Source: Rhodospirillales bacterium
Lineage (GTDB): Bacteria > Pseudomonadota > Alphaproteobacteria > Acetobacterales > Acetobacteraceae
Direction: 5' to 3'
DNA: 35,987 nt
NCBI GenBank assembly: GCA_028869315.1
Contig: JAGWSV010000332.1
Coordinates: 1-35,987 of the forward strand
Shown here: positions 26,521 to 31,725 of the stretch, piece by piece
How the letters are laid out: each line of letters begins with the position of its first letter
Numbering within the stretch: position 1 is the first letter of the stretch
Made by a program: the position numbers and the translations under genes
Notes under the pieces: model-generated
What the model was told of the DNA's origin: nothing
The model's input: only the letters and a program-made list of their open reading frames with translations
Database searches by the model: none

Positions 26521-27207
26521 CTACCCGCCCGGCACGAACCTGGCATGCTGGTCCGACATCCCGATCAGGACCCTTCCGATCAGCCCCGCCACCAGGCTCA
26601 GCAGGGCCACCGAGCCAAGCTGCCAGACGATCACCATGATGGCCGCGTCCACGGGATGAAAGAGGCGCAGCGCCGCCCCGCCCAGCGCCGCCGCGCCCAG
26701 CCCGCCGCACAGGCAGGCGTTGGTCCTGCGGAACTGGCCGCCACGGCGCAGCATGAGGGTGATCGCGATGGCTGGCACCAGCCCGGCAAGGGCGATCGAC
26801 GGCAGGCACATGGCATCCGCGGTCAGGGTCAATCCTTGGGGACCGTAATGCAGCAGGGTGTCCATGCATTGATGGCCGAGCGTGCCCAGCCACAGCAGCA
26901 TCGGGGCCAGCGGCAGCCACAGCTTCCACCCCGGCTGGTCCGGCAGCCCGGCGCACAGCGCCGCATACGTCCCGACCGTCGCGGTCAGCGCCGCGGCCGC
27001 CACCTCGGTCAGGAAGCCGGGATCGGCCAGGCGCGCCGCCAGGTCCGGCCGCAGGCCCGACACCACGGCAACGACGCCGGCGGCCGGCACCGACGCCAGG
27101 AGCCACCGGCCGAGCCGTGCCTCGGGCGAGGGGAGACGCCGTACCGGTTCCAAACCGGCCGTCAACTGGGCGACGAGTCGTTCGGTCTCCATCTCAGCCC
27201 GATCCAT
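26521..27207 (-). CDS. NrsF-like (DUF1109) membrane anti-sigma factor
   Basis: A 228-residue inner-membrane protein with six hydrophobic segments, matching the DUF1109/NrsF family, which holds its cognate SigF-type ECF sigma factor at the membrane. Several cysteines (AALCAGLPD, LGHQCMDTLLHYG and NACLCGG) may take part in sensing; in Caulobacter NrsF, cysteines are needed for the response to metals, as I recall. The short N-terminus (MDRAEMETERLVAQLTAGL) is cytoplasmic and probably binds the sigma factor. The gene overlaps the end of the sigma gene by 14 bases if ATG 27207 is used; ATG 27192 would remove the overlap. Co-expression with the sigma factor is expected. Confidence 0.9.
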   Translation of the reverse strand: MDRAEMETERLVAQLTAGLEPVRRLPSPEARLGRWLLASVPAAGVVAVVSGLRPDLAARLADPGFLTEVAAAALTATVGTYAALCAGLPDQPGWKLWLPLAPMLLWLGTLGHQCMDTLLHYGPQGLTLTADAMCLPSIALAGLVPAIAITLMLRRGGQFRRTNACLCGGLGAAALGGAALRLFHPVDAAIMVIVWQLGSVALLSLVAGLIGRVLIGMSDQHARFVPGG

Positions 27208-27754
27208 CCAACAGCTTGCGCAAAGCCTTGATCCCCCGGTGGGTGGCGACCTTGAGCGCGACCACGCTCATGCCGCTCGCCGCCGAGGCCTCCTCCAGCG
27301 ACATCTCCTGCAGCTTGGTGAGTTCCAGCGCCTGCCGCTGCCCCGGCGGCAGCTGCGACAGGGCGGCACGCAACGTCACCGCGTCCAGGCCCTCCTCGAC
27401 CTTGCTGTTCGTCGCCAGCGCGCCGGAGGTTTCAGGTACGTCGTCGATATTGGTCTCGCGACCCATGTTGCGGTGGGTCCGGCGCATCACGTCGGCGCCG
27501 CGGAAGCGCAGGATGCCGAACAGGAACGGCATGAACGGTCGTTCCGGGTCGTACAGGTGACGCGAGGCGTGCAGTGCAAGCAGCGTCTCCTGCACGACAT
27601 CCTCGATCTCGGCCGCCCCGGCGCGCGGCCACCGCGCCCGCGCGGCGCGGCGGAGCGGCGGGAGGACGGCCTTCAGCAATGCGGCGTAGCGCGCGCGATC
27701 GCCCGCTTGGGCCGCGCGCATCCACTCCCGCCAGCATGGGTCTTCCACACTCAT
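27194..27754 (-). CDS. ECF RNA polymerase sigma factor, SigF-like
   Basis: A 186-residue ECF sigma factor. Region 2 is recognisable near residues 20-85 (ARYAALLKAVLPPLRR, IEDVVQETLLALHASRHLYD, PFMPFLFGILRFRGADVMRR). Region 4 lies near 130-180 (LSQLPPGQRQALELTKLQEMSLEEASA, MSVVALKVATHRGIKALRKLL). Pairing with a DUF1109/NrsF-type anti-sigma gene places it in the SigF-type ECF group, described in Caulobacter as a response to oxidative and heavy-metal stress. Three copies of the promoter expected for such a sigma factor lie within 5 kb. No such site is seen before its own gene, so autoregulation is not evident. It is divergent from the thioredoxin/ccdA operon. Confidence 0.93.
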   Translation of the reverse strand: MSVEDPCWREWMRAAQAGDRARYAALLKAVLPPLRRAARARWPRAGAAEIEDVVQETLLALHASRHLYDPERPFMPFLFGILRFRGADVMRRTHRNMGRETNIDDVPETSGALATNSKVEEGLDAVTLRAALSQLPPGQRQALELTKLQEMSLEEASAASGMSVVALKVATHRGIKALRKLLDGSG

Positions 27755-27854: not shown

Positions 27855-27880
27855 GTAACTTTTGGGGCCTTCGGGGCGAA
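27855..27880 (+). promoter_or_regulatory. SigF-type promoter for the thioredoxin/ccdA operon
   Basis: GTAACT at 27855-27860, exactly 16 bases, then CGAA at 27877-27880. This is the bipartite form I recall for Caulobacter SigF (GTAACC-N16-CGAA). The end of CGAA is 75 bases before the thioredoxin ATG. The same element is found before two other nearby genes. Confidence 0.75.
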
Positions 27881-27954
27881 GGTCCGGCAAGGACGCCGGC
27901 GCGCGCGATCCAGCGCCGCCCGGCGCCGGTATCCAACGGCAAGGACCCTGCCCG

Positions 27955-28398
27955 ATGCGTCATCTTCGCCCCGCTGCCCGCGCCTTTGGCGCGTTCCCCC
28001 GCGCTGCGTTCGCCCGGCTGGCGTTCGCCGTGGCCGCCGCCTGCCTGCCGCTGCTGCCCGCCGCCGCCCGCGCGGCCACGGTGGCGCCGTTCACCGAGGC
28101 GGCATTCAAGGCCGCCGAGGCCCAAGGGCGACCGATTCTGCTCGACATCTTTGCCACCTGGTGCCCGACCTGCGCTGCGCAGAAGCCGATCATCGCGCAT
28201 CTGAGCCAGGCGCCCGAGTTCCACGACCTGCTGATCCTGAGGGTCAATTTCGATACCCAGAAGGCGGTGGTCCGGGCCATGGGGGCGCGGATGCAGAGCA
28301 CCCTGGTGGCGTTCCACGGCGCGACCCTGAAAGGCGTTTCGGTGGGCGAGACCGACCCGGCGGCGATCAAGGCCCTGCTGGTCAAGGCGGAAGGCTGA
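27955..28398 (+). CDS. Periplasmic thioredoxin-fold protein
   Basis: A 147-residue exported thioredoxin-like protein. A signal peptide covers about residues 1-41, with a long basic start and cleavage likely after LLPAAARA. The mature part has the redox motif ATWCPTCAAQKP near residue 69 and the strand LILRVNFDTQKAVVRAMG; the usual cis-proline position appears to be replaced (MQSTLVAFHG). It is probably reduced across the membrane by the CcdA-like protein encoded 7 bases downstream. AAGGA lies 7 bases before ATG 27955. A SigF-type promoter lies 75 bases upstream, suggesting induction under envelope or redox stress. Confidence 0.87.
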   Translation: MRHLRPAARAFGAFPRAAFARLAFAVAAACLPLLPAAARAATVAPFTEAAFKAAEAQGRPILLDIFATWCPTCAAQKPIIAHLSQAPEFHDLLILRVNFDTQKAVVRAMGARMQSTLVAFHGATLKGVSVGETDPAAIKALLVKAEG

Positions 28399-28404
28399 GC
28401 GGCG

Positions 28405-29127
28405 ATGTCGCCCGTTGCGCTGGGCTTCGGCTTCCTGGCCGGGCTGCTCTCGGTGCTGTCGCCCTGCGTGCTGCCGATGCTGCCGCTGGTGTTCGCGCCC
28501 GCGGCCTCGGCGCACCGATGGGGCGCGCTGGCGCTGGTCGCGGGGCTGGTGAGTTCGTTCGTCGGGATCGGGCTGTTCCTCGCCACCGCCGGATTTTCCC
28601 TTGGCCTCGGGGGCGCGGTGTTCCGCGATGCGGCGGCGGTGCTCCTGGGGTTGCTCGGCGTCGTGCTGCTGAGCGGGGCGTTGCAACACCGTTTCGCGCT
28701 GGTCGCGGGCGGGATCGGCTCGGCGGCCGATCGGCTGGCGCGCCGGATCACGCCGTCCGGGCTGGGCGGGCAGTTCGTGGTCGGGCTGCTGCTGGGCGCC
28801 GTGTGGTCGCCTTGCGTGGGGCCGACCCTGGGGGCGGCGTCGGTACTGGCGGCACAGGGACGGGATCTGCCCGGCGTGGCGGCGGTGATGCTGGCCTTCG
28901 GCGCCGGGGCGGCGCTGCCGCTGCTGGCGCTCGGGCGGCTGTCGCGGGCCGGCCTGGCACGCTGGCGGGGGCGCATCATGCAGGCCGGGGCAGGGGGGAA
29001 AATCCTGCTCGGAACGGCCGCGCTGGCGGTCTCTCTGCTGATTCTGAGCGGCCTCGACCGCGCGGCGGAAACCGCGCTGGTGCAGGCCTCTCCCGGCTGG
29101 CTGGTCGCGCTGACGACGCGGTTCTAG
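28405..29127 (+). CDS. CcdA/DsbD-like transmembrane thiol-disulfide transporter
   Basis: A 240-residue inner-membrane protein with about six transmembrane segments. Its two redox cysteines lie in paired motifs, LLSVLSPCVLPMLPLVF near residue 20 and GAVWSPCVGPTLG near residue 136, the hallmark of CcdA/DsbD-type proteins that carry electrons from cytoplasmic thioredoxin to periplasmic partners. The obvious partner is the exported thioredoxin-fold protein encoded immediately upstream. The pair is too small to be a full DsbD, so it acts as a split system. A short hairpin with a T-run 30 bases after the stop closes the operon. Confidence 0.92.
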   Translation: MSPVALGFGFLAGLLSVLSPCVLPMLPLVFAPAASAHRWGALALVAGLVSSFVGIGLFLATAGFSLGLGGAVFRDAAAVLLGLLGVVLLSGALQHRFALVAGGIGSAADRLARRITPSGLGGQFVVGLLLGAVWSPCVGPTLGAASVLAAQGRDLPGVAAVMLAFGAGAALPLLALGRLSRAGLARWRGRIMQAGAGGKILLGTAALAVSLLILSGLDRAAETALVQASPGWLVALTTRF

Positions 29128-29156
29128 CGTCCTGACCCGCAGATAGGTTGCCATGC

Positions 29157-29180
29157 CGCGGGACGCGCTTTTTTTGTTTT
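29157..29180 (+). terminator. Rho-independent terminator after ccdA-like gene
   Basis: A small CGCG-GGA-CGCG hairpin (29157-29167) is followed by seven T residues and, after one G, four more. It lies 30 bases after the ccdA-like stop in plus-strand orientation. The stem is short, so strength is uncertain. Confidence 0.6.
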
Positions 29181-29237
29181 CAGCGGCCTGCTCCTGACCA
29201 ACGCCGCGCCCGCCTGCGGGAGCGGGCTCCGGTGCGG

Positions 29238-30398
29238 TCAGTCGAGCCGCATGGGGCTCGCGGCGCGCAGGTCGCGCAGCACGTCGAACACCCGCACACC
29301 GGTCTGCGGCGGCGCCGGCTCCAGCCAGGGCGCCGCCGCCAGGACCTTGCGGGCGTCGGCGATGCCCTGGAGCCAGCGGCGCTCCATCGTGGCACGGCTG
29401 AACTCGTAGTCCTTCTGCGACCCCTGCAGGCTGTCCGGGCGATAGATCACCTGCGCGATGTCCATCGTGGTCACGCAGGCGATCTCTTTCAGGAACTGCG
29501 CCGCCGGCGTGGCCTTCAGCCCGTCCGGCAGGGCTTCGAGCAGGGTGTTGAGATTGTGCCGGATATCGTGCATCGCACGGAACTGATCGGTGCCCATGCG
29601 GGTGCGGCTGGAGTAGCGGATCTCCTTTTCCCGCTCCAGCACCTCGTCGATCGTGCGCGGCTGCGGGCCGCGCGCCGGGAACAGGTCGACCTGAAACGCC
29701 AGGCGGCTGCGCCGGGGATAGTAGGACAGCACGTATTGCAGCGGCGTGTTGGAGACGAGGCCGCCATCCCAATAGGTTTCGCCGTCGATCTCGACCGCCG
29801 GAAATCCCGGCGGCAGGGCGCAGCTTGCCATGACGTGCTCGGGCCGGATCTCGATTTCCTCGCTGTCGAAATAGGTCATGTTGCCGGTGCGCACGTTCAC
29901 CGCGCCGACGCTGAGGCGGGTGCGCCCGGCGTTGATCCGGTCGAAATCGACCAGCCGCTCCAGGGTCGGCCGCAGCGGCGCGGTGTCGTAATAGCTCGGC
30001 GGAAAGCCGCAGAAATACCAGGCGACGGAATCCCAGCGCTCGAAGAACCCGGGCTGGCCGAAAGCGAGCGCCGACAGCGCCCCGGCGTGACGATTCAATT
30101 CGTCGAACAAGGCGCCTGGAAGCAGCTTCCAGTGCGACGAGGGGGCGGTGATGGTTTCCCAGAAGTCGCGCAACCGGGGCACGCGGTCGTTCGGCTCGTT
30201 GCCGGCGATGATCGCCGCGTTGATGGCGCCGATCGAGATGCCGGCGACCCAGTCGGGCAGGTATCGCGTATCGGCGAGGGCTTCATAGACCCCCGCCTGG
30301 TAACTGCCGAGCGCGCCTCCGCCTTGCAGCACCAAGGCCACCAGCTTGTCGTAGGAGGAGGGAGCGGCGGCGGCGGATCTGGCAGGCTTGACCGGCAT
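29238..30398 (-). CDS. Patatin-like phospholipase
   Basis: A 386-residue patatin-family acyl hydrolase. The oxyanion motif (LVLQGGGALGSYQAG near residues 23-37), the nucleophile elbow (GISIGAINAA near 54-63) and the dyad aspartate in DGG (ETYWDGGLVSNTPL, around 215) are intact, so it should be an active lipase or phospholipase A. A C-terminal extension (REKEIRYSSRTRMGT and onward) resembles the DUF3734 tail common in proteobacterial patatins. There is no signal peptide. ATG 30398 follows GGGAGA. A SigF-type promoter ends 69 bases upstream, so this gene probably belongs to the regulon of the nearby ECF sigma factor and may remodel phospholipids or mobilise fatty acids under stress. Confidence 0.92.
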   Translation of the reverse strand: MPVKPARSAAAAPSSYDKLVALVLQGGGALGSYQAGVYEALADTRYLPDWVAGISIGAINAAIIAGNEPNDRVPRLRDFWETITAPSSHWKLLPGALFDELNRHAGALSALAFGQPGFFERWDSVAWYFCGFPPSYYDTAPLRPTLERLVDFDRINAGRTRLSVGAVNVRTGNMTYFDSEEIEIRPEHVMASCALPPGFPAVEIDGETYWDGGLVSNTPLQYVLSYYPRRSRLAFQVDLFPARGPQPRTIDEVLEREKEIRYSSRTRMGTDQFRAMHDIRHNLNTLLEALPDGLKATPAAQFLKEIACVTTMDIAQVIYRPDSLQGSQKDYEFSRATMERRWLQGIADARKVLAAAPWLEPAPPQTGVRVFDVLRDLRAASPMRLD

Positions 30399-30466
30399 CG
30401 GTGCGTCTCCCTTCCCGTATGAAAGCGAACAGAACGATATCGATCTGCAGCCGTCGTACAAGAAAC

Positions 30467-30492
30467 TTCGTGACGAACACCTGACAAGTTAC
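30467..30492 (-). promoter_or_regulatory. SigF-type promoter for the patatin-like gene
   Basis: On the minus strand GTAACT (30492-30487), exactly 16 bases, then CGAA (30470-30467). The -35 hexamer and the spacing are identical to those at 27855. It lies 69 bases before the patatin start. Confidence 0.75.
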
Positions 30493-30583
30493 ATGACAGG
30501 CGGTTCACGCGCCGGCACCCGTTGGAAACCCGATATGGATGCCGTTGACCGACCCGCCGCTGCTTCCGGCCGCTTCGGCCCGA

Positions 30584-31639
30584 TCAGAACCGACCGGCCA
30601 GCGACAGCATGCCGTAGTTGAACGGCGAACCGTGTTGACCCCGGAAGGAACGGGTCTGTACGACCTGCGTGTAGGAGATGCGGATGCCGTGGTAGATCAC
30701 GGCGATGCCGGCCTCGGCTTCACCCAGGAACCGGTCCCGGGTGACGTGCGGGCCCGAACGGAAGGTGTTGCCGTCAAGGAACAGGTCGTGGCCGACGGCC
30801 TGGCCGTCGATGCCGACGAAGACGTACCAGCCGAACTTGCCGCTGGGGTGGAAGGCCGTGCGCCCGCCGGGACCGGGGGGCAGTTGCGGCACGCCGAAAT
30901 CGGCGCCGAGGTCCCGACCGAGGCGGAATGTTATCCCGCTCTCGCCGTAAATGCGGACGTTGCCGAGGCCGCCCGAGATCGCCGGCAGAACGTCCGCCTC
31001 GATCCCGTTCGATCCCGTCGGCCATACCGGGCCGAGAGGAACCCGCCAGGTGCGCCCGGCGGTGAGTTCGATCGTCGGCTCGGTGCGAAGCTGATAGCCC
31101 CAGCCCCGATTGGTTCCCTGGCTGATCCAGTGATGGAACCCGTTCTGCACCGGCTCGCCGCCGGCGGGCGGGCCGATGACGCCAAGCGTAAGGCCGAGCA
31201 CGCTGAGCGTGTTGTCCTTGACCTGGTCGAGCCCGAGCGAGACGGCGAGATAGCCGGCATACGGCCGGTCGAGCGGGTTGGGGGGTTTCGATTGCGTGTC
31301 GGTCGGCGTGAAGATCTGTTGCATGACCCCGACGCTCAGCCGCTGTTCGCCCGCCCCCCAGACAAGGTGACCCAATCTGGACATCGGGCCGGGTACCTCG
31401 CCCACCGGCGACGTCCAGCCAAGACGGAGCCCGTTCGTATAGTTGCGGTCGGTGGGGCTGCCGCCCGCGATGCTCGAATTGTCCCATTGCAGCGACCAGA
31501 TTCCGCCGCCGGAGGCCGGCGGTGCCGCTTGCGCCGGCGCGGCGCCGGCCAGCATTGTTGCCGCCATCAGCACGATGGCGGACGCGGCCGGCGCATGCGC
31601 GTGGCGCGGCGGGGCGGATTTGCCGATGCCTGCGCTCAT
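30584..31639 (-). CDS. LpxR-like outer-membrane lipid A deacylase (DUF2219)
   Basis: A 351-residue outer-membrane protein. The signal peptide ends near APAQA (about residue 37), followed by WSLQWDNSS and RNYTNGLRLGW, the first strands of the LpxR beta-barrel that include the active-site asparagine-aspartate and threonine region. DRPYAGYLAVSLGL and the histidine-containing FHHWISQGTNRGWGYQL are family signatures, and the protein ends in phenylalanine, as barrels do. Such enzymes remove the 3'-acyloxyacyl chain of lipid A. ATG 31639 is chosen from the signal peptide; ATGs further upstream are in frame. A canonical SigF-type promoter ends 61 bases before the start. Confidence 0.85.
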   Translation of the reverse strand: MSAGIGKSAPPRHAHAPAASAIVLMAATMLAGAAPAQAAPPASGGGIWSLQWDNSSIAGGSPTDRNYTNGLRLGWTSPVGEVPGPMSRLGHLVWGAGEQRLSVGVMQQIFTPTDTQSKPPNPLDRPYAGYLAVSLGLDQVKDNTLSVLGLTLGVIGPPAGGEPVQNGFHHWISQGTNRGWGYQLRTEPTIELTAGRTWRVPLGPVWPTGSNGIEADVLPAISGGLGNVRIYGESGITFRLGRDLGADFGVPQLPPGPGGRTAFHPSGKFGWYVFVGIDGQAVGHDLFLDGNTFRSGPHVTRDRFLGEAEAGIAVIYHGIRISYTQVVQTRSFRGQHGSPFNYGMLSLAGRF

Positions 31640-31699
31640 GCCGGGTCGATCGACGTGTCTGCGGCCATCGCCGGGCATCCTCGTTTGCTGGTGCTGATA

Positions 31700-31725
31700 T
31701 TCGCAGGCAAGGCCCGCGGGGTTAC
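31700..31725 (-). promoter_or_regulatory. SigF-type promoter for the lpxR-like gene
   Basis: On the minus strand GTAACC (31725-31720), exactly 16 bases, then CGAA (31703-31700). This is the full consensus as I recall it for Caulobacter SigF. It lies 61 bases before the lpxR-like start. Confidence 0.75.

Follow-up and report, generated by a model that had tools for sequence, protein, structure and literature searches.

ECF16 sigma factors are best known for their control of methionine sulfoxide reductase and bufferin genes. In Caulobacter, SigF recognises GTAACC-N16-CGAA, a motif backed by 5'RACE and fusions, and its targets comprise two bufferin-type operons and a YedY/MsrP-type gene (PMC3511200). 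The motif of Brucella BcrS, (T/C)GTAAC-N17-CGAA, was also mapped by 5'RACE (PMC8315932), and further members have been described in Sinorhizobium (RpoE7, PMC6180224) and Bradyrhizobium (EcfF, PMC3420878). The Bradyrhizobium anti-sigma factor OsrA has only two cysteines, C129, required for sigma binding, and C179, required for the response to H2O2 (PMC3420878).

We analysed a window of 35,987 nucleotides, contig C274 of a 3.95 Mb MAG of 360 contigs. As the first-pass annotation had claimed, the window holds a neighbouring SigF/NrsF-type pair. The ECF sigma factor is predicted to be of SigF type (ECF16; 27194-27754, minus strand); it has 186 aa and contains only regions 2 and 4 (Sigma70_r2, r4_2). 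The anti-sigma factor NrsF (26521-27207, minus strand; PF06532, 5.6e-25) has six helices in the structure model and a variant Cys/His pattern in the alignment columns. On the plus strand, the gene of an exported thioredoxin-like protein (trx, 27955-28398; PF00085, 3.6e-9) with a WCPTC motif and an N-terminal signal-like stretch is followed six bases downstream by that of a CcdA/DsbD-type membrane electron carrier (28405-29127; PF02683, 1e-11, and PF13386). The minus strand then encodes a patatin-like phospholipase with DUF3734 (29238-30398; PF01734, 3.2e-33; PF12536, 7.6e-32), whose catalytic motifs are intact (GISIG and DGG), and an LpxR-family outer-membrane protein (30584-31639; PF09982, 1.3e-91), in which residue comparison gives DNS in place of the END motif. 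NCBIfam returned no match for NrsF or LpxR. The BufA precursor and the MNIO maturase are absent beside the sigF-nrsF pair of the window and present on contigs C167 and C315 and in relatives. The module is adjoined by a gene for a ChrR cupin-like protein (PF12973; 31882-32532, plus strand), which has no SigF-type site ahead. Cupins of the ChrR type serve as anti-sigma components elsewhere among ECF systems.

The first-pass annotation had placed three promoters in this module, and all are exact matches at 27855-27880 (plus strand, before trx-ccdA), 30467-30492 (minus strand, before the patatin gene) and 31700-31725 (minus strand, before lpxR). Their -35 hexamers are GTAACT, GTAACT and GTAACC, respectively, and the claimed spacer of exactly 16 bases between hexamer and CGAA was found in 3/3 sites. 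The sites are intergenic and lie at similar distances from the start codons: CGAA is separated from the ATG by 74 bases for trx (ATG at 27955), 68 for the patatin gene (30398) and 60 for lpxR (31639), in line with the previous estimate of 61-75 bases. A pattern scan with GTAACY-N16-CGAA, or with GTAAC-N17-CGAA, found exactly these three matches in the whole window, where 0.04 are expected, and none of 100 shuffles of the window sequence reached three. This agrees with the claim that the few other GTAAC and GTTAC occurrences checked in the window lack CGAA at that spacing. The family promoter named in the first-pass annotation, GTAACC-N16-CGAA, equals the Caulobacter SigF motif (PMC3511200). 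Because ccdA begins six bases after trx, one promoter probably serves both genes. There is no SigF-type site upstream of the window sigF itself.

A second module on contig C167 has the same order: sigF-nrsF, a divergent trx-ccdA, then patatin and lpxR. Its proteins are 79% (SigF), 70% (NrsF), 83% (Trx), 83% (CcdA), 80% (patatin) and 68% (LpxR) identical to those of the window, and a site precedes each homologue of the three target genes trx, patatin and lpxR. We compared the three pairs of promoters. Their -35 and -10 letters (ten per site) are identical at 29 of 30 positions, while only 8, 4 and 8 of the 16 spacer bases agree and the flanks of 60 bases on each side show 17-38% identity (ungapped, anchored on the site). 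The promoter letters have been retained while the nearby DNA drifted towards chance, and no other result argues as strongly for functional sites. The composition of C167 (mean correlation 0.71, within the 0.68-0.81 of the other contigs in the bin) neither excludes nor suggests that the second module stems from a binning error, and the footprint argument stands either way. At L042 (12136-12312 and 12532-12730), a remnant of the nrsF 3' end is followed by an exact site and an uncharacterised 97-aa ORF, and immediately downstream of nrsF another exact site precedes a 41-aa ORF with a signal peptide. This arrangement bears signs of a tandem duplication of the nrsF-promoter junction.

The first-pass annotation spoke of a local regulon and proposed a genome-wide scan for the motif and a comparison with related genomes. 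The scan found 19 matches of GTAAC-N17-CGAA against 6 with a reversed control pattern, and 13 matches of the GTAACY version against 3. A narrower pattern, GTAACYT-N15-CGWA, has 11 exact matches in the genome, all on C83, C92, C167, C274 and C315. Its one-mismatch matches are about as frequent as in the control, and we did not add members from such scans because they are at background level. 'Local' is too narrow, since the genome contains at least 13 exact sites, 10 of them outside the window; the regulon is predicted to span the genome, with about a dozen sites. Of the 13 GTAACY sites, the window has three and C167 has six, and the other four are single sites on C83, C92, C315 and C3. On C83 the site lies upstream of a third patatin gene, from which a short ORF separates it; on C92 it precedes a solitary bufA, on C315 bufABC-doxX and on C3 a gene for a VTT-domain protein. 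Most of the 13, and most of the 10 outside the window, are associated with a bufferin (copper-metallophore) operon or with a trx-ccdA, patatin, lpxR or VTT gene, and the genes behind C167:12136 and C167:12705 are short and match no family. We regard all 13 as predicted promoters.

The comparison with related genomes found sites before bufferin, trx and patatin genes. Close relatives (L059, L060 and G004/L048) carry sigF-nrsF-bufABC-doxX, with a divergent trx-ccdA in two of them, and L061/L184 has patatin and VTT genes beside the sigF-nrsF locus. A site with at most one mismatch and a spacing of 16 occurs before bufA in all close loci checked, before trx in L059 and L060, and before patatin in L061, the patatin site of L061/L184 being a CGTA variant. 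In a wider set, we counted exact sites ending in CGAA or CGTA no more than 450 bp from the aligned start, and the reversed sequence used as control gave none. Such sites precede trx in 6/9 cases, bufA in 11/17, patatin in 3/4 and lpxR in 2/2. Twenty NrsF loci of the family together have 36 sites, against 4 on the reversed sequence. The link between lpxR and the site is so far confined to the two copies in this genome: upstream of stand-alone LpxR genes, which served as negative controls, there was no exact site (30 genes of other family members) and one GTAACG near-match (G001). Stand-alone patatin control genes are almost devoid of sites (one exact, in L095).

Two further arrangements were observed in other genomes. 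In another family of the class (L147:6715-8754, G027:C8), an exact site stands upstream of an operon, opposite bufABC-doxX, that encodes a Cys/His-rich exported peptide, a membrane protein and trx-ccdA. This peptide is perhaps a further metal-binding product. Two other genera have a SigF-type site within the sigF coding sequence, ahead of nrsF (L186:1391-1416, L188:2329-2354, L189:6380-6405, L192:6811-6836, L194:6591-6616, L195:5358-5383, L196:6423-6448, L197:6882-6907 and L198:7593-7618). Its -35 element is formed by the codons GTA ACC in 9/9 genes; GTA accounts for 14 of the 96 Val codons in these genes, and 9 of the 14 fall there. This concentration suggests that the DNA itself may be selected, perhaps as an internal promoter letting SigF raise its own anti-sigma factor. 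The counterpart in the window (27408-27433, minus strand) has one mismatch, GAAACC.

We conclude, with a probability of roughly 90%, that the three sites are promoters for RNA polymerase carrying an ECF16 (SigF-type) factor, that NrsF releases this factor under metal or oxidant stress, and that the targets are those proposed here, within a genome-wide regulon. The identity of the sites as promoters is close to certain, and the ECF16 (SigF/NrsF-type) attribution, drawn from partner and promoter, is strongly supported. Direct observation covers the sites, how well they are conserved and the genes around them. By analogy with Caulobacter, Bradyrhizobium and Brucella, the membrane protein NrsF would hold SigF in the unstressed cell and let it go upon metal or oxidant stress in the envelope. 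Freed SigF would then act at the identically spaced sites, raising the exported thioredoxin and its electron donor CcdA, the patatin-like phospholipase and the LpxR-family protein. It would also turn on bufferin metallophore operons, the VTT-domain membrane protein and additional copies at other loci of the genome. The genes in the window would provide reducing power in the periplasm and remodel lipids, with other loci producing the bufferin metallophores.

Either of two SigF proteins may act at these sites. The first-pass annotation had attributed control to the adjacent sigma factor. Motif, spacing, NrsF partner and conservation uphold the part of this claim that concerns the class of promoter, but control by the adjacent SigF would look the same here as control by its paralogue. 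The host has two SigF-NrsF pairs and an orphan NrsF, and the same motif is found at both loci. It is conceivable, if rather unlikely, that the sites are real ECF16 promoters read mainly by the C167 paralogue, with other or overlapping targets for the SigF of the window. However, the three sites lie beside the window's own sigF. Moreover, at the identity given above and with very similar C-terminal (region 4) halves, cross-recognition by the two SigF proteins is likelier than a division of labour. We infer binding, transcription, trigger and acting SigF, and our preferred reading is that one regulon is probably common to both pairs. The orphan anti-sigma factor is the third NrsF gene (L047:461-1144, G000:C237); it is 65% identical and has no adjoining sigma gene on its contig.

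The lipid enzymes raise a different question. Salmonella LpxR, a lipid A 3'-O-deacylase (3FID), shares its Pfam family with the window protein along almost the entire length, and its catalytic His122 aligns with H169. Simulations of the Salmonella enzyme indicate that D10 is essential to hold the Ca ion (PMC6260217). In both SigF-linked copies, Ser replaces the Asp expected to bind Ca, the second residue of the ND pair; this register to 3FID was set by motif, as phmmer did not align that end. The two copies read DNS or ENS, whereas 32 of the 33 other homologues that span the motif read END or DND, among them the third copy of this genome (C80), which bears END. The Asp is lost in the window protein (30584-31639), in L042:16949-18058 and in one congener (L124, G001). 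We call the window protein a member of the LpxR family and at most a putative deacylase. The substitution agrees with patatin and LpxR being passengers of a duplicated module, whose promoters fire while the enzymes no longer perform the ancestral reaction, a reading that we consider possible but doubtful. The two LpxR copies are 68% identical, and each retains its site, an intact reading frame and the catalytic His; patatin keeps its catalytic motifs and has a site near another sigF too. That the three matches are mere coincidences of chance or coding is highly improbable: six GTAACG matches elsewhere in the genome do resemble background, but the window sites exceed expectation, are intergenic at like start distances and are kept in the paralogous module amid drifted DNA.

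Within the favoured account of ECF16 promoters released from NrsF control, the signal may be particular to this lineage. The NrsF model has six long helices (residues 28-49, 63-86, 100-121, 134-156, 161-183 and 189-223; mean pLDDT 80), and a structural comparison gave a best Z of 5.4, nothing beyond the common helical-bundle level. Cys134, the equivalent of C129/C131, is kept in 37/37 distinct aligned NrsF. The position of C179/C181 is occupied by His184 in the window protein and by His in 30 of the 37, with Cys in six and Glu in one. Four extra cysteines (Cys85, 114, 165 and 167) are common to 18 of these proteins, from close relatives and two further genera. The model brings C134 and H184 to the same face of the membrane, places C114 roughly two turns inward and sets C85, C165 and C167 at the opposite face. 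Since characterised members have a different set of sensor residues, the trigger may also be a different one, and a Cys/His metal site is one hypothesis. We tentatively suggest that SigF/NrsF is here a sensor of metal, perhaps copper, with a Cys/His site replacing the two-thiol one, coupling bufferins to periplasmic thiol reduction and to membrane-lipid remodelling by patatin and a changed LpxR. If the promoters work, this variant, with His for the H2O2-sensing Cys and four extra Cys, offers a direct, mutable handle on how ECF16 anti-sigma factors discriminate metals from oxidants.

The class of mechanism is already known, since motif and partner equal those of the Caulobacter and Brucella systems, and the targets are apparently new. 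In the main texts of the open-access literature we found no report of trx-ccdA, patatin or lpxR as ECF16 targets, and a literature search found nothing relevant tying LpxR or patatin to ECF sigma factors. If the sites work, the ECF16 response also reaches the outer membrane and the phospholipids. The footprint between the paralogous copies also yields a clean consensus from which regulons of this kind can be predicted elsewhere. The paralogous module and the relatives correspond to the bufferin (Buf1) clusters with a sigma factor and NrsF (PMC12452194). Unlike these, the window copy is without a bufferin gene and keeps trx-ccdA, patatin and lpxR, which go unmentioned in the text of that survey. 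EcfF-OsrA of Bradyrhizobium and BcrS-AbcS of Brucella share with the window the group 16 sigma factor, the six-helix DUF1109/NrsF protein and the motif, with C129 kept as C134 (PMC3420878, PMC8315932). However, OsrA has C179 where the window protein has His, and the targets of these systems include methionine sulfoxide reductases, not the genes of the window. The ECF16 prototype, SigF-NrsF of Caulobacter crescentus (PMC3511200), resembles the present system in its promoter, its sigF-nrsF operon and its small regulon, with bufferin-type operons (DUF2282, DUF692, DUF2063, DoxX) under the motif, here elsewhere in the genome. It differs in that Caulobacter sigF has its own site and the window sigF has none, and in that the window NrsF has His for C181 and the four extra Cys; moreover, trx-ccdA, patatin, lpxR and VTT genes are added here to the predicted targets.
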